Below are positions 4,426 to 20,687 of a stretch of DNA of 24,830 nucleotides, piece by piece. The DNA comes from a virus. The notes under the pieces were generated by a model. It saw nothing but the letters and a program-made list of their open reading frames with translations, was not told the DNA's origin and ran no database searches. Both the position numbers and the translations under genes were made by a program. The DNA lies in the IMG/VR virus record IMGVR_UViG_3300008266_000526, positions 1-24,830 of that record, one strand, 5' to 3'. Positions within the stretch are counted from its first letter, which is position 1. Every line of letters starts with the position of its first letter.

Positions 4426-6256
4426 TTCTATTTATATTAGTGTTTGTTCTATTTAAAGCACCTACTAAATCAGAACCTCTCAAACTTAAACTTACCGCTC
4501 CAGTCATTGCTAATCCGCCAGCATTTACACCACCAAAATTTACTGCTTGTGATCTATTTATTCCAATTCCAGCACCTCTACCAACTCCACCGCCACCAGT
4601 TGCAGAATCCAATACTTTCATAGTTGCACTATACCCACCTCTAGTTATAGCATCAGCAGCCGCAATTGCAATACTTGTTGCAATAATTCTTGAAAGAATT
4701 GCCGCTAATTGTTGCAATACAACTTTACCAAATTCTTTCCAACTAAATTTACCTTGTTCAAGAATAGTGTCAAAAACATAACTTAATGGAGCAGCAATTA
4801 AGTTTTCAACTGTATCTTTTACTTGAATTCCCAGTTTTAAAGTTTGTTCTTGTATATTTTTATAACTATCAAGTACTTCTTTTTTAATTACTTCACCTAT
4901 TTTTGGGCCTTTAAAATTCTTTAAACTTTCTTGAAAATCAGCTCTAAAACCTCTAATCTTTTTATCTAATTCAAGAATTTCTTTTCTTTCTTGTTTTTGT
5001 TTATTTAAATTATCAATAACATCTTGTAAAGGCTTACCTTGGGCGTATTCACTAAAAGTTTCTGCCCTTAACTTTTTTTGTTCTTCTCTTTGTTTCTTTA
5101 AACCTTCAATAAATTTCTTAAATCTATCTGCATTATCCTTTTCAGCTATTCCTTCTGTCTTTGCTCTTGCTTTAGCTGCTTCTTCTGCAGCTTTTTGTTG
5201 AGCTTTTAAAGCCTCTGTTTGTGTTTTAATTATTCCAGTATTTGTGGCAATTTTTAAATCTACATCAGTTAATATTTTATTTAAAAATTGAAATGCCTCG
5301 CCACTTTGTTCTATTTGATCAATTGATTCTAATTGAATAGCTAAAAAAGGAGCATAACCTTTAAGTATTCCTTTTAATGCTTTAGGAATATCACCTAAAA
5401 AATCTTGTTTTTGTAATGAGGCAAGTTGAGTAAGAGCATTAGTTGTTTCTTTTTCAATTGCCTTTATTAATGCTTGTCTAGTACCATCAAGAATTATATT
5501 TTCTTTCTTGATAGCTGCTAATTGTTTTAATGTTTGTAGGTTATCACCATTTATGGTTTTTTCTTTATCTAATGCCTCAATCACATCTGGCATTACATTT
5601 TTTAAACCTTCGTAAGCTCCTAGCCTATTTGATTGAGAAGATTTTGAGTTTTCTAGTACAGAAATTAAATTATCTATACTTTTTGCTTCAGCAATTCCAG
5701 CAGCAGTTGAAGCTATTTGTGCCTTTTCATATTGTTCGGTTGCTATTTTAGTTTTACTAACTAAACCAAATATTTGACCGAGAGCGTTACTTAAAGACCC
5801 ATATTCTTGTACTAAACCAGTAATGGCTGAAGTAAGAACACCAAAGCCAAATGCAAGTCCTGCTGGGCCAGCAATAGAGTTTAAGATTGCTCCTAGTGCT
5901 TTACCAGCTCCGCCAGTTGTTTGTTTTAATGCAACAAATTGATCGACAAGAAGAGGTAAGTTATTCTGAATTGCAATAAAACCAAATGGTAAATCCCTTG
6001 CAACTTGACCCAAAGCAAATAAAGCATTTTGTCCTTGTTGTGCGCCTTTTGCAACACCGGTGAATCCAACCTTGCTTAAATTTGTTAAGCTGCCCTGTAA
6101 TTCTTGTACATAGGCATTTGCTTTGGCTAAAGCATCCCCAGTAAGGTTTTTTAAATTAGCTTTTACTGAATTTAATTCGGCTTCAACTTGGCTAATTGAT
6201 TTTTCAAATTTAGATATATCCGCACCTAACCGAAATATAAAATCTTCATTAGCCAT
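4418..6256 (-). CDS. Tape measure protein
   Basis: This 612-residue protein sets tail length and is packed in the tail tube before ejection. Support comes from its position straight after the two tail chaperone frames and from its composition. The N-terminus is helical and charged (MANEDFIFRLGADISKFEKS), followed by long predicted helices. Hydrophobic glycine/alanine-rich segments lie at about 120-170 (GAILNSIAGPAGLAFGFGV) and again near 505-545. A Lys/Glu/Gln-rich coiled-coil stretch runs through about 355-450. Using the known rough scale of 0.15 nm per residue, the tail would be about 90 nm, short for a siphovirus; this is an estimate only. The start ATG overlaps the end of the upstream gpT-like frame by eight bases. 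Confidence 0.9.
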   Translation of the reverse strand: MANEDFIFRLGADISKFEKSISQVEAELNSVKANLKNLTGDALAKANAYVQELQGSLTNLSKVGFTGVAKGAQQGQNALFALGQVARDLPFGFIAIQNNLPLLVDQFVALKQTTGGAGKALGAILNSIAGPAGLAFGFGVLTSAITGLVQEYGSLSNALGQIFGLVSKTKIATEQYEKAQIASTAAGIAEAKSIDNLISVLENSKSSQSNRLGAYEGLKNVMPDVIEALDKEKTINGDNLQTLKQLAAIKKENIILDGTRQALIKAIEKETTNALTQLASLQKQDFLGDIPKALKGILKGYAPFLAIQLESIDQIEQSGEAFQFLNKILTDVDLKIATNTGIIKTQTEALKAQQKAAEEAAKARAKTEGIAEKDNADRFKKFIEGLKKQREEQKKLRAETFSEYAQGKPLQDVIDNLNKQKQERKEILELDKKIRGFRADFQESLKNFKGPKIGEVIKKEVLDSYKNIQEQTLKLGIQVKDTVENLIAAPLSYVFDTILEQGKFSWKEFGKVVLQQLAAILSRIIATSIAIAAADAITRGGYSATMKVLDSATGGGGVGRGAGIGINRSQAVNFGGVNAGGLAMTGAVSLSLRGSDLVGALNRTNTNINRIG

Positions 6257-6885: not shown

Positions 6886-7317
6886 TTATGCAGTTACATC
6901 AATTGTTCCAGTTGATGCGATTGTTCCAGAAAAGTTTACAAATTCAGTTGTAGCTTGATTCATTGTCAAAGATGTGATATAACCAGCAAATTGATGGTAA
7001 TAAGCAGCGCCAGCAGATGAACCGCTCACAACTGGGTTTTGTACTCTTACGGTTACAAGTGTCTTATTCGCAAATGCTGAAAGCAAAGAGCTATAAGAAA
7101 CTTGAGAAACGCTTGGAGCAGTTTCGCAAATTGCATCGAAATCCAAACTCATTTGAGGCTCGCCTACCGCAGTAAGAACGCCGCAATTTGTTTGATCGGT
7201 GGTAGAATCGACCGTAGAGTTTACGGAAGAAGTACGCAAACAAACGAGGTTTTTATATGATGAGCCACCAGCCACATCAATCTCGATGTTTTGTAAAGAA
7301 CCTTGAACTTGTGCCAT
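6886..7317 (-). CDS. Major tail (tube) protein
   Basis: The 143-residue protein, starting MAQVQGSLQNIEIDVAGGSS, is almost entirely beta-strand-like with a Gly/Ser/Thr-rich composition and lacks membrane segments. It carries the pattern expected of siphovirus tail tube subunits: an early substrate-like strand (KNLVCLRTSSVNSTVDSTTD), then GEPQMSLDFDAIC, and a C-terminal strand ending NFSGTIASTGTIDVTA. It lies between the tail-completion gene and the tail chaperones, the canonical order. Tube subunits polymerise as hexameric rings around the tape measure. Codon choice and GC content are somewhat higher than in the flanking genes, in line with strong expression. Confidence 0.85.
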   Translation of the reverse strand: MAQVQGSLQNIEIDVAGGSSYKNLVCLRTSSVNSTVDSTTDQTNCGVLTAVGEPQMSLDFDAICETAPSVSQVSYSSLLSAFANKTLVTVRVQNPVVSGSSAGAAYYHQFAGYITSLTMNQATTEFVNFSGTIASTGTIDVTA

Positions 7318-7324
7318 TGTTTGT

Positions 7325-7756
7325 TTATTTTTGGTTTACTAAATTACGAATTGTTAATATCTTTCTACTTATATAATTATCTCCCTCCCACAAAGGTAAG
7401 TAAGTTGACAATGTCCTAGCCATTGGGAAAACCTCAAAGTCGGCATCATCAAACCCATCGACTTGTGTATCTGGGATCAAAATATTTAAAATTTGGTTGG
7501 CAATATTATCAACTTGCCCCATGTTGTTATTCTTATTTTGCTCACTATATACCTCAATTGTTACCTCTACAATATTACTAAATGAATTATTTGTATTGTC
7601 AGCAACCTCGGTTATGTTGGTAATGATCGCATATTGCTCTGGAGGTGTTACAAATGGCGATTGCCCATAAACGGGAACATTCCTACTATTGTAAGTAATG
7701 TTACCATTCAAGGCATTGACATATATTGTCCTCACATTATTTGAGCAATCCTTCAT
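7325..7756 (-). CDS. Tail completion / tail terminator protein
   Basis: The 143-residue protein is placed between the gp10-like gene and the major tail protein, where tail terminator proteins (lambda gpU, SPP1 gp17, HK97 gp10-neighbour type) are encoded. The sequence shows an N-terminal helix-strand part with PVYGQSPFVTPPEQYAIITN, then a long strand (NIVEVTIEVYSEQNKNNN), then a helix QVDNIANQILNIL. A strand followed by a D/N-rich turn and an amphipathic helix is typical of the terminator fold, which caps the tube at its head-proximal end. Assignment is by position and secondary-structure pattern. The start ATG overlaps the upstream stop. Confidence 0.72.
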   Translation of the reverse strand: MKDCSNNVRTIYVNALNGNITYNSRNVPVYGQSPFVTPPEQYAIITNITEVADNTNNSFSNIVEVTIEVYSEQNKNNNMGQVDNIANQILNILIPDTQVDGFDDADFEVFPMARTLSTYLPLWEGDNYISRKILTIRNLVNQK

Positions 7757-8214
7757 TATTTGTTCTTATATTTTCTTATAAACTCTCTTACTCTCTTTTG
7801 ATATATCGGCCAATAAGCCAAAATGCTTGGTCGCATATATGGCCTAGGAGGTAAATTAACTTGCTTTATGCCTCTACCTCTAAACAACCCAGCCAATTTT
7901 GCCCATGCGTTGTTTTCTGGTGTTATGAACCTATTTCCAGTACCAAACTCAATATATGCAGCATAATCGGTTTGAGCCACGAATTGATAGCTCAAAAACT
8001 GATCTTTCTTAAATGATATTGAGTTTAGCAATCTACCCGTATCAACAGCCCCTTGACTAGATACTAAATTCTTGGCACTCCTTACCATATCTTCACCAGT
8101 GGCGGCCAACTCACGATCCATAGTAGCGCTCACCTCATCAACGGTTTGCTTGTACTTGGTTAAGATTCTATTGAATCTAGCATCATTTACCTCTAATTTA
8201 AACCCACTTGGCAT
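7756..8214 (-). CDS. HK97 gp10-like head-tail / tail-completion protein
   Basis: The 152-residue protein shows the signatures of the HK97 gp10 family: a helical N-terminus, then AVDTGRLLNSISF, then TDYAAYIEFGTGNRF, then LPPRPYMRPSI near the C-terminus, ending basic (REFIRKYKNK). VDTGxLxxSI, YAxYxEFGTG and PPRPFxRP are the three hallmark segments. The family acts at the head-tail interface of siphoviruses. The gene overlaps its upstream neighbour by one base and its downstream neighbour by one base, which indicates tight translational coupling. Confidence 0.88.
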   Translation of the reverse strand: MPSGFKLEVNDARFNRILTKYKQTVDEVSATMDRELAATGEDMVRSAKNLVSSQGAVDTGRLLNSISFKKDQFLSYQFVAQTDYAAYIEFGTGNRFITPENNAWAKLAGLFRGRGIKQVNLPPRPYMRPSILAYWPIYQKRVREFIRKYKNK

Positions 8215-8782: not shown

Positions 8783-9748
8783 TTATTTAAAATACATTTC
8801 TCTGACCCATTTTTCAAACTCATCGAGTGCTTTGCTCGGATCATGATCTCTGGATCGACTTTTCGCTTTTCTTGAGGCTTCCTCGTAGGCTTTTTTGTCA
8901 TCCAACTTATTAATTGCGTTAATCCAGCTTTTAATGTCATTCCGATCTTTTATGTAAATTCCAGCACTACCGCAATTCTCCTTTAAGCCTTCAGCCATAC
9001 TACAAATAACGGGTATCCCACTGCACATTGCCTCGGTTGCCGTTCTTCCCCAGCTCTCGTACTCACTAGGCATCAGCAAAATCCTTGTTTGCCTATAATA
9101 CTGCAATATTTCGCTCGTATTTGGCACATATTTGATGTTTTGAAGGTTTCCCTTAACTTGCTCATCATAGCTGCCTAAAACGCCTAAAAACCGCTTATTT
9201 GGCATTGCCTCGGCTATCTTTTCAAATATCTTTCCGCCTTTGTTCTCGTTGGTGTTAATAAGAGTGATATATTCGTTCTTCCACGGGTCAATGCCTAAGT
9301 CATAAATGCGATAGTCAACGGGAGGCGTTAGTATAAAGTTAGGCCATTCGTAATTCAATTTTTGTTTTAGCCAAAAAGAATTATACACAATGTGTTGATT
9401 GGCGTTTGCGTTTACAATTTCTGGGTATAAATGGCTATTATGAATAAGATGAAAGACTGGTTTTTTATATAATTGAGCCGCCCCAATTGTCCATCTTGTA
9501 TAATCTAAATGTGTAAAAACTACATGACTCCATCGCATCAGTGAGTCAATTACATTCTCTTGTGGAGGAAAAACATCAATGCCATCAAAGACATAATTAT
9601 TTTTAATCTTATAATGATTGGCTTGATGCAATAAGACCTTAATTTGATGCCCTTTTGCTTGTAAATCCTTCAGTATCCAGTGTAACATATATTCAGCACC
9701 GCAGTTGTGACGGGGTGGATATAAGTGAATGGAGGCTAGTATATTCAT
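8783..9748 (-). CDS. Glycosyltransferase, GT4-like (GT-B fold)
   Basis: The 321-residue protein transfers sugar from a nucleotide-sugar donor. The N-terminal domain starts MNILASIHLYPPRHNCGAEY, matching the acceptor-side Rossmann segment with the PPxxGGxE-like loop of GT4 enzymes. The C-terminal donor domain shows NTNENKGG (165-172), then PSEYESWGRTATEAMCSG (227-244) with the E-x7-E motif at E231 and E239, and IPVICS. No signal peptide or membrane segment is seen, so it should act in the cytoplasm. It overlaps the GT25-like gene by four bases (ATGA), so the two are co-translated. Lying inside the head-tail gene order, its likely target is a virion protein or host surface glycan. Target and donor sugar are unknown. 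Confidence 0.88.
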   Translation of the reverse strand: MNILASIHLYPPRHNCGAEYMLHWILKDLQAKGHQIKVLLHQANHYKIKNNYVFDGIDVFPPQENVIDSLMRWSHVVFTHLDYTRWTIGAAQLYKKPVFHLIHNSHLYPEIVNANANQHIVYNSFWLKQKLNYEWPNFILTPPVDYRIYDLGIDPWKNEYITLINTNENKGGKIFEKIAEAMPNKRFLGVLGSYDEQVKGNLQNIKYVPNTSEILQYYRQTRILLMPSEYESWGRTATEAMCSGIPVICSMAEGLKENCGSAGIYIKDRNDIKSWINAINKLDDKKAYEEASRKAKSRSRDHDPSKALDEFEKWVREMYFK

Positions 9749-10305
9749 ATAAGTTTATTTGCTGATCCGTCAAATATATTGGTATAATCCGCAACATGAT
9801 CCCATAGTGTAGAGTAATGTGGTTTTTGCCAAGCCATCATTGGCGAAATTATAAAACTTTTATGTCTAGATTGTATATTTTTCAATAACCAATCATCAAA
9901 CATAATTGATATATCATCGTATGATTCGCATAATTTTTTCGGATTGTTATATAAAACGGCATGAGTAGTCCAACAACCATTTACGTTAAATAGATTGTCA
10001 CTATATCTAGAATACTCGCCAATTATATTTGCTCCTAAATAACAAAGCTCCCAATCACTTGGAAGTTGGCTAAGTGCGCTTTCAAAATGCGCATATTCTT
10101 TTATAAGCACATCATCTTCAAACATAGGCAAAATGCCTTCGTGTTCGCTCATGATTTGCTTCATGCTCTTATTAAAACTATGCTTAGGATTTACATCTTT
10201 AATAGCATAGTATGGCACTGGTTCGTATCCTAATTTGGAAACTTCTCGCATTGCGCTACCAAGTCTTCCAAGTTCATTCTCTGTTGTAAGTATATAAGCA
10301 TTCAT
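9745..10305 (-). CDS. Glycosyltransferase, GT25 / LgtB-like
   Basis: The 186-residue protein resembles family 25 glycosyltransferases. It has an N-terminal MNAYILTTENELGR followed by a Rossmann-like region, the metal-binding motif FEDDVLI (FEDD at 62-65), then WELCYLGAN, TTHAVLYNN and the C-terminal HYSTLWDH. GT25 members move galactose or glucose to lipooligosaccharide or to collagen-type acceptors. It is near the usual minimum size for the family but appears intact. Its start codon lies five bases after the T-tract of the terminator that follows the capsid gene. It is translationally coupled to the GT4-like gene. Substrate is unknown; the location favours a virion glycosylation role, an inference. 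Confidence 0.82.
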   Translation of the reverse strand: MNAYILTTENELGRLGSAMREVSKLGYEPVPYYAIKDVNPKHSFNKSMKQIMSEHEGILPMFEDDVLIKEYAHFESALSQLPSDWELCYLGANIIGEYSRYSDNLFNVNGCWTTHAVLYNNPKKLCESYDDISIMFDDWLLKNIQSRHKSFIISPMMAWQKPHYSTLWDHVADYTNIFDGSANKLI

Positions 10306-17554: not shown

Positions 17555-17956
17555 TCAACCCATTACTTCCTCCACGATACGGCAATTAAAGCGCTCTATA
17601 AGCATTTTACACAACTCTTGGTGGTTCACCTCAAAGGGTATGTATAAATTGACCCTTTTATCCATGTGGTATTTCTCCTTGATATAGGCCTTGATCCGCT
17701 CAATCCTACCAAGTACAATAGCATCTTCGATATAGATCAAGTTATTGATCAGCTCTACCGAGTACAATATCGTGGTATGGTGAACCTTTACAACCTCTTG
17801 TATCTCCTTGAGTGTCGCCCCATAGTAAGTCTTGGCAAAGTAGTAAAACAACTGGCGAGTAAAGACCAGCTCCTTGTACCTATTCTTACCAAGTACTCTA
17901 TCCTTCTCTTGTTTGTTAACTACGCAAATAGCATCTAGCAAATCATTCAAATTCAT
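17555..17956 (-). CDS. DnaA domain IV-like DNA-binding protein (putative replication initiator or regulator)
   Basis: With ATG at 17956 the protein has 133 residues. The central part (about 25-72) resembles DnaA domain IV: ELVFTRQLFYYFAKTYYGAT, then LKEIQEVVKVHHTTILYSVE. In DnaA, the helix-turn-helix ends in the signature DHTTV; here it is HHTTI at 59-63. No AAA+ ATPase part precedes it, so it is a stand-alone DNA-binding domain. The C-terminus (KRVNLYIPFEVNHQEL onward) is unlike DnaA. A longer 154-residue frame begins at TTG 18019, but its start has repetitive coding. The gene follows an iteron-like repeat array and the promoter at 18091-18122, which suggests that its product binds there. 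This link is inferred. Confidence 0.72.
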   Translation of the reverse strand: MNLNDLLDAICVVNKQEKDRVLGKNRYKELVFTRQLFYYFAKTYYGATLKEIQEVVKVHHTTILYSVELINNLIYIEDAIVLGRIERIKAYIKEKYHMDKRVNLYIPFEVNHQELCKMLIERFNCRIVEEVMG

Positions 17957-17960
17957 AATA

Positions 17961-17999
17961 TGACATTTTTGACATTTTCCCATTTTCCCCCTTTTCCTA
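17961..17999. repeat. Short tandem repeats upstream of the DnaA-like start
   Basis: On the minus strand the leader shows GGGAAAAT twice in direct contact and then GTCAAAAAT and GTCAT, with AGGAAAAG before them. The unit length is 8-9 bases. It precedes the ATG at 17956 by only a few bases. TGACA/TGTCA also occurs several times in the terminase gap, so these could be sites for one protein, or merely A-rich leader sequence. Confidence 0.4.
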
Positions 18000-18045
18000 T
18001 ATACCACACTATACAACAAAAACTACTTTTTCAAGAGGGTATTCG

Positions 18046-18061
18046 TTTTTTTTTAAAAAAA
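18046..18061. other. T9A7 tract beside the repeat array (candidate unwinding element)
   Basis: Nine T (18046-18054) are followed by seven A (18055-18061), directly bordering the first ATCGATTACA repeat. A long A/T-only tract next to iteron-like repeats is the usual layout of a replication-origin unwinding region. It is not a terminator, as there is no GC stem. Function is inferred. Confidence 0.4.
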
Positions 18062-18151
18062 TCGATTACATCGACTACAAGACTGATAATCAAATATATA
18101 TCGAGTACAAATCGATTACAAATGGTGTACATTTTAACAAAATGGACTACA
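18061..18151. repeat. Six-copy 10-bp repeat array, ATCGAnTACA-type (iterons or operators)
   Basis: Copies on the plus strand: ATCGATTACA (18061), ATCGACTACA (18070), ATCGAGTACA (18100), ATCGATTACA (18111), ATGGTGTACA (18122) and ATGGACTACA (18142). Distances between starts are 9, 30, 11, 11 and 20, close to multiples of the DNA helical turn, so all would face the same side. Read on the minus strand they are TGTAATCGAT-like, sharing TGT with DnaA boxes. The array spans the promoter at 18091-18122, ends beside the 14-bp near-palindrome at 18152, and lies between the primase-helicase and DnaA-like genes. Confidence 0.7.
18091..18122 (-). promoter_or_regulatory. Bacteroidota-type promoter of the DnaA-like gene
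   Basis: On the minus strand TTTG (18122-18119) is followed after exactly 20 nt by TATATTTG (18098-18091). Both match the Bacteroidota consensus TTTG / TAnnTTTG. Transcription should begin near 18084, giving a leader of about 128 nt. Two repeat copies fill the spacer, one touches the -33 box, and two lie just downstream of the start, an arrangement expected for autoregulation. Confidence 0.72.
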
Positions 18152-18165
18152 TTGTTTAGACAAAA
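18152..18165 (+). repeat. 14-bp near-palindrome TTGTTTAGACAAAA, copy 2
   Basis: It is identical to the 14-mer at 17079-17092. It directly abuts repeat copy six (ATGGACTACA, 18142-18151), upstream of the minus-strand promoter. It probably binds the same factor as copy 1. Confidence 0.6.
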
Positions 18166-18176
18166 ACTTCTCTACA

Positions 18177-20687
18177 CTAAAATAAATCATTAGACTCTTT
18201 TGGTTCAAAATAAATTTTATAACATTTTTTATTAGAATTTCCCCGATCTCGGAATGTTTCGTAATCGATTTTTAATAGCCCACATGACTCTTCAACCCCC
18301 TTGGTAAACCTCTTGAGCGAGTAATCTTTCTTATCAAAACCGCCAAAACTTAAAAAATCATTGTACAATCTTTCCAGTGTTATGGTTAGTCCACTCTCCT
18401 CTTTTAACCCCATAAAATACTCCAAAAACTCCTCACCGAATTGCACCTTGATTTGCTTTCTTATGATCTTATCGCTAGGTGGCACATCCGTTACGCCGTT
18501 CTCTAAGTAATCCATGACCGAGTGAAACATTAAATTATAAAACCTATTCCACTCATCTTTGTCCCAATCTTCAAATAATTTATGCCCAAACTCATCCTCC
18601 GGTGTGCGTTGTGGCGAGAAGTATCCGCTAAATTCAAACACTTTTTGCCTTCTTTTGGCGTGATTCCCGGCATTTGGTATGGTGTAATTGGTAGTGAATA
18701 TAACCTTTGGTGAGTCTTTATAATGTATCCGCAACTCATCCTTGTTCTTTTTCTCTACGGTTATACCCTCTGTGATGATGCTATAAAACCCCTCAAAGTC
18801 CACATTACGCCTCGTATCTTCTATTGCCAATAGCCTAGTATCCAAGTCAACTCTCTGAAACGCAAAGTTCTTATCTACCTTAAAGTTCTTACCATCCACC
18901 ACCACAAGGTTGTTGATATACCCCAATGCCTTGTTAAATATACCTTTTCCAGTGCCTCCTCCTTTTTGCTCGTTCTCGGTCTCTTCGCATAGGATTACTG
19001 CAAATGGTCTGGCTGGGTCTTTGTACTTATGTAGTAGGTAGCCAATTAAACTTATGGCATACATGATTCGATCCGGGTCAAAGTCGCATATCCTTTCTAT
19101 AAACTTATAATACTCTACGTTCTCGTAAGCAAAGTCATTCTCTATATATATATGGTGATCGATAACTTGTGACTTCCAAATAACAGAGGATATGCTACCA
19201 TATTCAAGTAACTCAACAGAATCCTTGGTAATCTTCACTACCCCATTCTTAAATGGTATGTATGCCTCATCTCTTGTGTCTGATAGAAACTGCAAATTAG
19301 CTCTCTCAAAAAACTCAAAGAAGTTATCGGAGAAGTATTGGTTCGCTCCTTTATAGATTGTCTCCATCAGCGTCTGTGGATCAAGGCCAGCATCAAAACT
19401 GGAAGGCAACCTATTGATATAATTCTTTATAAACTTCTTGATTTGCTCTGTCGAACTCTCCTCTACCATGCCATCCAGTACTCGCACAAGCCTATAAATA
19501 ATCGAGTTCGGTTCGTAGAAATACAACTTAAACCCTCCCTTGTCATTTAAAAACCTTTCTAGCTTATCGAGCTTAATTACGGCCTCTACTCTACCTCTTT
19601 TCTCTACCGAGTCCCAAAACTCACGGATATTATCACCCCACTCAAGCTCTAGCTTATCAATGATCTCTGTTGCCTCATCCACGCTTTTATCATACTTCTT
19701 TACAAGCATGGTAATTTGTTCACTCTTTGGTACACCATTGCGCCTTTTCTCAAATACATCACGCTCTAACTTATCTCCAAAATACGATTTCCTTTCACCA
19801 TACCCAGCCTCTAAAAGCGCAACCGCACTTTTTTTGTAGTTTCCTCCATGCTCCAAGATGGTAAAGACGGCGCTAGGCGAATAGCCTTTTTGTACTTGAA
19901 ATGGCGTATTCGTTGAGAATACGGAAAATAATCCCATTTCGGTATTATAACTCCCACTATGTTCACTAGTACCTCCCGGTCGCAAGAAGAAAATTCTAGC
20001 GCCTCCATTCTTAACCTTTTTCCAACCGTTGCGCTCCATGAGTTCGACAAAGTCGCATCTTTTGTTAAAGTCATCAAATGGCGAGAGTCCGTATTCTTTA
20101 GGAGAAGGGCGGTTATGGGCTTCAATGATTTCCTCATCAATAACTTCGTTGAATGAACGCATAATAGTGAGTAGCTCTTCCCGCTCCTCGATTGATATGA
20201 CATGGATGCCATCTTGCAGCACTTCGTAGCCCGTTGTAGGCGGAGCAACCACGTAGCCAGCCTCACCCCTTGTCTCAATGATGGTGTAGTGCTTGTTATG
20301 CGGATTTGTTGCAATTTCCGCAACACTTGCGTGTCTTTGTGCAAGTTTCGCATTCCCTTCCACAACTTCGCATCGATAGTACAAGTGATACCCTCCGCTT
20401 TTTGTTCGTACGATATGCAGCCTATTGTAAATTGGTGGGGGTATTCTTTGTTTGATAGCTTCCCAAAGTTCATAAGTTTGATATTTAGTGTCTATATCAA
20501 TAACCTCAAGGCCTCCACTAATCGCACCGCAAATGATCGCTATTCCTTTTGCCCGACTATCAGACAATTGCCGCTCAAGCTCCTCCGCCGTAATCTTCTC
20601 CGTTTGAAATCTCTTCCAAGGATAGATGGCTTGCTTGTTGTCATTGATAGCAATAGTGTTGATGCCTAAGTCCAAGTATTTAGTCAT
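18177..20687 (-). CDS. Primase-polymerase / SF3-type helicase fusion
   Basis: The 836-residue protein joins two replication activities. Residues 1-180 look like a PrimPol domain: GIAIICGAISGGLEVIDID (catalytic D64 and D66 in VIDID), then TKSGGYHLYY with H101, then ETRGEAGYVVAPP. About 370-470 is a linker resembling the D5 N-terminal region. The C-terminal helicase has GGGTGKGI (Walker A, 577-583), LLAIEDT (Walker B, 619-625) and VIFTTNY (sensor, 662-668), as in phage and viral SF3/D5-like helicases. Such proteins prime and unwind phage DNA. It ends at 18177, next to the repeat array that could be the origin. The stop is TAG. Two in-frame-shadow ORFs on the same strand are not genes. Confidence 0.92.
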   Translation of the reverse strand: MTKYLDLGINTIAINDNKQAIYPWKRFQTEKITAEELERQLSDSRAKGIAIICGAISGGLEVIDIDTKYQTYELWEAIKQRIPPPIYNRLHIVRTKSGGYHLYYRCEVVEGNAKLAQRHASVAEIATNPHNKHYTIIETRGEAGYVVAPPTTGYEVLQDGIHVISIEEREELLTIMRSFNEVIDEEIIEAHNRPSPKEYGLSPFDDFNKRCDFVELMERNGWKKVKNGGARIFFLRPGGTSEHSGSYNTEMGLFSVFSTNTPFQVQKGYSPSAVFTILEHGGNYKKSAVALLEAGYGERKSYFGDKLERDVFEKRRNGVPKSEQITMLVKKYDKSVDEATEIIDKLELEWGDNIREFWDSVEKRGRVEAVIKLDKLERFLNDKGGFKLYFYEPNSIIYRLVRVLDGMVEESSTEQIKKFIKNYINRLPSSFDAGLDPQTLMETIYKGANQYFSDNFFEFFERANLQFLSDTRDEAYIPFKNGVVKITKDSVELLEYGSISSVIWKSQVIDHHIYIENDFAYENVEYYKFIERICDFDPDRIMYAISLIGYLLHKYKDPARPFAVILCEETENEQKGGGTGKGIFNKALGYINNLVVVDGKNFKVDKNFAFQRVDLDTRLLAIEDTRRNVDFEGFYSIITEGITVEKKNKDELRIHYKDSPKVIFTTNYTIPNAGNHAKRRQKVFEFSGYFSPQRTPEDEFGHKLFEDWDKDEWNRFYNLMFHSVMDYLENGVTDVPPSDKIIRKQIKVQFGEEFLEYFMGLKEESGLTITLERLYNDFLSFGGFDKKDYSLKRFTKGVEESCGLLKIDYETFRDRGNSNKKCYKIYFEPKESNDLF

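Follow-up and report, generated by a model that had tools for sequence, protein, structure and literature searches.

Phased repeats beside a PrimPol–SF3 gene as a probable replication origin of tailed Bacteroidota phages

Introduction

In the viral DNA analyzed here (the window, meaning the whole stretch of 24,830 nucleotides), a cluster of short repeats lies between a PrimPol–SF3 helicase gene on one side and a gene for a DnaA domain IV-only protein on the other. The question raised by this locus is what the repeats do and which neighbor, if either, reads them. A first-pass annotation had favored the DnaA-like protein, which was proposed to bind the repeats as iterons of an origin, as operators, or as both. 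Our comparison of the locus with its relatives suggests that the array is probably the replication origin of a tailed Bacteroidota phage, read by the adjoining PrimPol–SF3 protein. The features on which the argument turns are the following.

17555–17956, minus strand: adjacent gene for a DnaA domain IV-only protein of 134 aa (PF08299 Bac_DnaA_C, 4e-10)
17961–17987, plus strand: tentative degenerate inverted units TATGACAT, TTTTGACAT, and TTTTCCCAT in a 9-bp register, with the direct repeat TGACATTTT present twice
17988–18061, minus strand: T-tract and AT-rich stretch, the proposed melting region (T9A7 of the plus strand at 18046–18061; the T-tract after unit 6 is kept in relatives)
18061–18070, minus strand: unit 6, TGTAATCGAT, second of the tight pair, beside the T-tract
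18070–18079, minus strand: unit 5, TGTAGTCGAT, first of the tight pair (9-bp pair in nearly all relatives)
18084–18100, minus strand: core, TTGATTATCA (consensus TAAnnTnnTTGATWATCA from column counts over 49 distinct cores), resembling the IHF consensus, a probable bend site
18100–18109, minus strand: unit 4, TGTACTCGAT
18111–18120, minus strand: unit 3, TGTAATCGAT
18122–18131, minus strand: unit 2, TGTACACCAT (position kept in relatives)
18142–18151, minus strand: unit 1, TGTAGTCCAT
18177–20687, minus strand: PrimPol–SF3 helicase gene, 836 aa, the proposed initiator (Pfam Prim-Pol, 1.4e-13; Walker A GGGTGKG)
18210–18473, minus strand: PrimPol C-terminal winged-helix domain (CTD), the proposed repeat reader (AlphaFold2 model; covariation with the units)

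The repeat array in the window

The six units are TGTANTCGAT or close variants of it and lie on the minus strand within 110 bp. Their starts and spacings (9, 30, 11, 11, and 20) are as the first-pass annotation gave them, as is the T9A7 tract. Exact copies of TGTANTCGAT occur four times in the window, every one within the array and on the minus strand, and the combination of five copies with at most one mismatch and six with at most two was matched in 0 of 400 dinucleotide shuffles. The proposal that the units share one helix face is also supported: taken at 10.5 bp, the vector length is 0.82, for which random spacing gives a P of about 0.015, and the spacings are largely kept in relatives. 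Several direct repeats in helical phase, with AT-rich DNA alongside, are the general marks of an iteron origin, and the array shows them. The first unit lies no more than about 35 bp from the PrimPol stop, which places the array 3′ of the primase gene as in PICI origins, and this distance is also short in relatives.

The flanking genes were largely assigned as before. The PF08299 match bears out the next gene as DnaA domain IV-like, while for the previous gene, described as a PrimPol–helicase, the Prim-Pol part is upheld by its Pfam match and the SF3 label comes from family models rather than from structure. Because all genes of the window share one strand, GC skew is uninformative. Searches of PDB sequences with the PrimPol and DnaA-like proteins gave no match, nor did an Rfam search, and a terminator scan found no terminator. 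Elsewhere in the window, two glycosyltransferase-looking genes (8783–10305) sit within the head/tail cluster, and two separate genes (6886–7317 and 1344–1967) both match phrog_1407, a family of major tail proteins.

A conserved architecture with changing letters

The intergenic region, used as a DNA query against cultured phages, and the DnaA-like protein, used in tblastn, both returned no match, and relatives were therefore taken from IMG/VR and GTDB genomes. Searches with PrimPol gave about 100 IMG/VR loci, some on repeated contigs, and eight loci in bacterial genomes. Scanning related genomes for the repeat was a check set beforehand, and its outcome is divided: the architecture is kept, whereas the letters are not. 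More than 50 distinct relatives share one layout of up to four units of 9–10 bp, the core, two units 9 bp apart, the T-tract, and AT-rich DNA, and in IMG/VR relatives with enough downstream sequence, the PrimPol stop is directly followed by the array. In the two relatives whose DnaA-like proteins are 92% and 79% identical to that of the window, every unit position is kept, while in the 79% relative the letters have shifted from TGTAATCGAT towards TGTAGTCCAT and TGTAGGGCAT. Elsewhere, the types found include GTAGTCCAT, GTACGCGAT, GTACACGAT, TAACATCAT, GTAACCGAT, GTGCGCGAT, GTTCCACTT, and GTACCRCTT, and in all at least 11 unit types occupy one scaffold.

The geometry of this scaffold is nearly fixed. 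Spacings are mostly 20, 11, and 11, then 30–32, 42, or 53 across the core, and then 9, with the core spacers differing by about one helical turn. The 49 distinct cores have TAAnnTnnTTGATWATCA in common, which on the opposite strand is near the IHF consensus, with no mismatch in 20 of the 49 and at most one in 39; the window core has one. This resemblance suggests that the core is probably bent by an IHF/HU-type protein. In one locus (L040), whose PrimPol stop is at 4689, a tandem duplication farther downstream takes in the right part of the core and units 5 and 6 (TAATCAGTCTTGTAGTCCATGTAGTCCATTT twice). Inspection by eye near the PrimPol-like genes of Polaribacter phage Leef_1, MW202828, and MT835542 revealed no comparable array. 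In the cultured Bacteroides phage BT-TP2 (L122), GTAACC/GGTTAC repeats flank an AT-rich stretch at about 5045–5150, some 0.5 kb downstream of a primase-like gene, and these may represent a laboratory-accessible relative of this origin type.

An inverted half beyond the AT-rich stretch

In most clades, the unit reappears in inverted orientation beyond the AT-rich stretch, in two or three copies spaced 8–9 bp apart that end about 86–88, 93–97, and 101–104 bp from the start of unit 6. The best matches there have on average 1.20 mismatches to the inverted unit, compared with 2.45 to the direct unit and 2.56 to shuffled ones. The AT-rich stretch is thus enclosed by two iteron sets in most clades. 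A clear inverted half is found neither in the window nor in the L035–L043 clade, while the 79% relative of the window has a clear inverted copy. On the far side of the window, TGACAT twice and TCCCAT follow one another in a 9-bp register at 17961–17987, but no inverted unit scores above the cut, and this set is degenerate at best.

A prophage locus of Niabella aurantiaca (L115) carries the whole cassette mirrored relative to PrimPol, which indicates that the layout is independent of the direction of transcription. Its inverted arms of 22 nt are 91% complementary and lie 62 bp apart, and a similarly long inverted repeat of the pRN type is found in L014 (23-nt arms, 57 bp); the window lacks an extended repeat of this kind, with arms of about 21 bp enclosing about 58 bp. 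In L014, the single-strand hairpin score is z = −3.6 where the inverted units pair. A hairpin reading was also tried for the window and was rejected (z = −0.7 for its AT-rich part).

Units covary with the PrimPol C-terminal domain

Across 63 unique loci, which are related and whose pairs are therefore not independent, we compared unit distance with protein distance. The units correlate strongly with the PrimPol CTD (rho = 0.78) and the SF3 core (0.74), less with the PrimPol NTD (0.52), and only slightly with the N domain (0.22) and the DnaA helix-turn-helix (HTH; 0.21) of the DnaA-like protein. The Mantel P is 0.001 for both proteins, and the argument is therefore carried by effect sizes and partial correlations: the partial rho is 0.76 for the CTD given the DnaA-like protein, −0.20 for the DnaA-like protein given the CTD, and 0.33 for the CTD given SF3. 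Among the closest pairs, the CTD is still ahead (0.78 versus 0.44). The main caveat to these values is that the CTD coding region adjoins the array, and linkage alone gives some correlation.

Individual comparisons separate the two proteins further. Between L032 and the L014 group, SF3 differs by 2% and the DnaA HTH by 5–11%, while the CTD differs by 24–27% and the units have changed. L019 and L014 are identical in DNA over the CTD and the array, while the DnaA-like gene has diverged and encodes another recognition helix. Similarly, L031 and L035–L043 have similar units and CTDs with about half of the DnaA-like N domain different. In two prophages (L113 and L116), some 5 kb of DNA on each side of the array yielded no DnaA_C gene, and in L029 the DnaA-like gene is about 7.6 kb from the array. 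Taken together, these patterns argue that the units are most likely read by PrimPol through its CTD rather than by the DnaA-like protein.

The domain content of PrimPol fits such a role. DUF5906 is found in six of seven aligned PrimPol relatives and the NCBIfam P4-family primase_Cterm in three of the seven. The AlphaFold2 model of the CTD has pLDDT >90 across the domain and the order helix-strand-helix-helix-hairpin, with weak Foldseek matches to the winged helices of Fur, TFE-alpha, and Orc1, and the domain is accordingly modeled as a winged helix. With a primase domain, an SF3 helicase, and this predicted winged helix at the C-terminus of one protein, PrimPol has the composition of a P4 alpha-like initiator.

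We consider it unlikely that the DnaA-like protein binds the units, whether as origin binder, as autorepressor of its own promoter, or in both roles. Almost all IMG/VR relatives have its gene beside the array, PF08299 is found in 25 of 25 aligned relatives, and its model superimposes on the DNA-binding domain of Mycobacterium tuberculosis DnaA (3pvp) with a TM score of 0.92 (target length) at 1.3 Å, predicting a true domain IV fold; moreover, the units often start with TGT. However, the units track neither this protein nor its recognition helix, as seen above. The E. coli DnaA residues that contact bases are 432–435 and 438–439 (PMC5043019), and the alignment shows the family to be nearly constant there: the DHTTV motif hardly varies while the units change, although in the window protein H replaces the D of DHTT. 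Furthermore, the protein consists of domain IV without the AAA+ domain III of a full DnaA, and the repeats are not the DnaA boxes (TTATNCACA) of an oriC, as the units differ from these and vary by clade.

The DnaA box TTATCCACA is absent from the window. Five of 67 loci (L012, L033, L067, L068, and L087; shuffle mean 0.1) have exact copies of it between the array and the DnaA-like gene, where either the DnaA-like protein or host DnaA may bind them. In L013, tandem repeats with several open frames and GPPGPG-like stretches lie downstream of the DnaA-like gene at about 7700–8200. Judged by its lack of covariation with the units, the DnaA-like protein is most likely a partner or bystander of the origin, possibly a partner through, for example, mimicry of host DnaA or its own regulation.

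The proposed autoregulatory promoter is not generally conserved. TTTG-N20-TATATTTG, a Bacteroidota-type match that spans units in the window, recurs in the nearest relatives, whose protein identities are 100% and 92%, and may work in this clade, but a check of five further relatives did not find it. The −7 box shares bases with the conserved core, which persists also where the promoter is absent, and the promoter does not account for the conservation of the array.

Proposed mechanism and remaining alternatives

Of the earlier suggestion of an origin with iterons, we retain the origin, given the architecture, the inverted half in relatives, and the position 3′ of the primase–helicase gene, and replace the binder. 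In the proposed mechanism, the PrimPol–SF3 protein would use its C-terminal winged helix to bind the phased units, and the TTGATWATCA core, probably bent by host IHF/HU, would fold the DNA so that the four outer units meet the inner pair. This pair, 9 bp apart beside the T-tract, would load an SF3 helicase ring onto the AT-rich DNA, and a second ring would be loaded from the inverted units of the far side, a function for which the degenerate set of the window is a candidate. The duplex would then melt at the AT-rich stretch, and the PrimPol domain would prime both forks. Each phage clade would have its own pair of unit and winged helix.

It is quite improbable that the array serves solely as a transcriptional operator of the downstream genes and not as an origin. 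It lies between genes, in front of one of them, and phased repeats occur in operators too, but this reading has against it the covariation of the units with the PrimPol winged helix, the inverted far half, the mirror orientation of the L115 cassette, and a scan for sigma-70-type promoters that gave about what chance gives (3 matches versus 2.1 expected). Repeats surround an IHF-like site in lambda cosB as they do here, and a TerS gene lies about 1.3 kb from the array, yet a cosB- or pac-like packaging site read by the small terminase is very improbable, as TerS tracks the units weakly (rho = 0.38 versus 0.79 for the CTD at the same loci) and the array follows PrimPol and has its inverted half around AT-rich DNA.

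Comparison with known systems

An origin read by the PrimPol–SF3 protein would find its closest bacterial counterpart in the PICI/SaPI (Pri-Rep-ori) type. PICI origins have two iteron sets flanking an AT-rich stretch directly 3′ of the primase/initiator gene, a layout called unique to PICIs (PMC6092414). The position recurs here and so, in most clades, do the two sets around AT-rich DNA. Unlike these phage-inducible satellites, the phages here are autonomous and tailed, encoding head, terminase, and tail proteins of their own (in the window, portal and protease genes as well), and they differ further in the PrimPol (AEP) primase, the asymmetric side of six units, the IHF-like core, and the DnaA domain IV gene. 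Our reading would thus extend the layout to autonomous phages.

P4 alpha reads origin repeats through a winged helix, according to the passages cited from PMC4234260. It resembles the present protein in joining a primase and SF3 helicase to a C-terminal winged helix, and relatives here have primase_Cterm matches, whereas the P4 primase is Toprim-type and the unit layouts are not alike. With bacterial oriC, the locus shares repeats and an AT-rich unwinding region, an IHF-like site, and a nearby DnaA domain IV gene; in contrast, the units here are not DnaA boxes and do not covary with the DnaA-like protein, which lacks AAA+. Phage DnaA domain IV-only proteins would thereby be set apart from iteron recognition.

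The most extended parallel is with the Sulfolobus plasmid pRN1. In the passages cited here, its origin is mapped 3′ of a PrimPol–SF3–winged helix gene, as a 21-bp stem and 58-nt loop with no iterons (PMC4234260), every tested 3-bp deletion in the loop abolished transformation while base substitution was tolerated (PMC3869888), and the initiator is said to bind "not yet identified sequence motifs." A rolling-circle or hairpin role has been argued for the stem-loop. A loop that 3-bp deletions destroy and base changes spare behaves as a spacer whose length or phase matters. In pRN1 (L125, 5084–5183), we observe that each stem arm consists of TGTCCATAG followed by TGTCCAACT and a T-run, and the lag of 9 recurs in the arms of pHEN7 (L126; TGTCACCAC/TGTCACAAC) and pRN2 (L127; ATCGGACCG/ATAGGACAG). 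These 9-bp-spaced arm repeats of the pRN family, of TGTCCA, TGTCAC, and GGAC types, go unmentioned in the cited passages of the pRN1 papers. Among lags 7–13, 9 is the best in six of six arms (shuffle P = 0.031, 0.003, 0.005, and 0.054, and not significant in the stems of pDL10 and pSSVx).

The plasmid pRN1 with its initiator ORF904 and the phages share an AEP primase–SF3–winged helix gene followed by an origin, in the phages a probable one, with two units spaced 9 bp apart and a T-run; a mirror copy across about 58 bp completes the pattern in pRN1, and inverted units at near-fixed distances do so in most phage clades. They differ in that pRN1 is an archaeal plasmid with a perfect stem, in which the outer four units and the TTGATWATCA core are neither reported in the cited passages nor seen. 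The equation rests on geometry, because the winged helices do not align significantly (hhalign, pRN1 C-terminus versus phage CTD). It is possible, though we lean slightly against it, that bacteria and archaea share one origin design, inverted pairs of 9-bp-spaced, fast-changing iterons round about 60 bp of melting DNA with a co-diversifying winged helix, and that the pRN1 "stem-loop" is two iteron pairs. If so, the lethality of loop deletions and the tolerance of base changes would be explained, and the question of which sequence motifs the pRN1 initiator binds would have a concrete answer. The phage loci would also provide a large natural series of matched initiator domains and origins. Such a series could reveal a winged-helix recognition code and allow the incompatibility of phage origins to be predicted.
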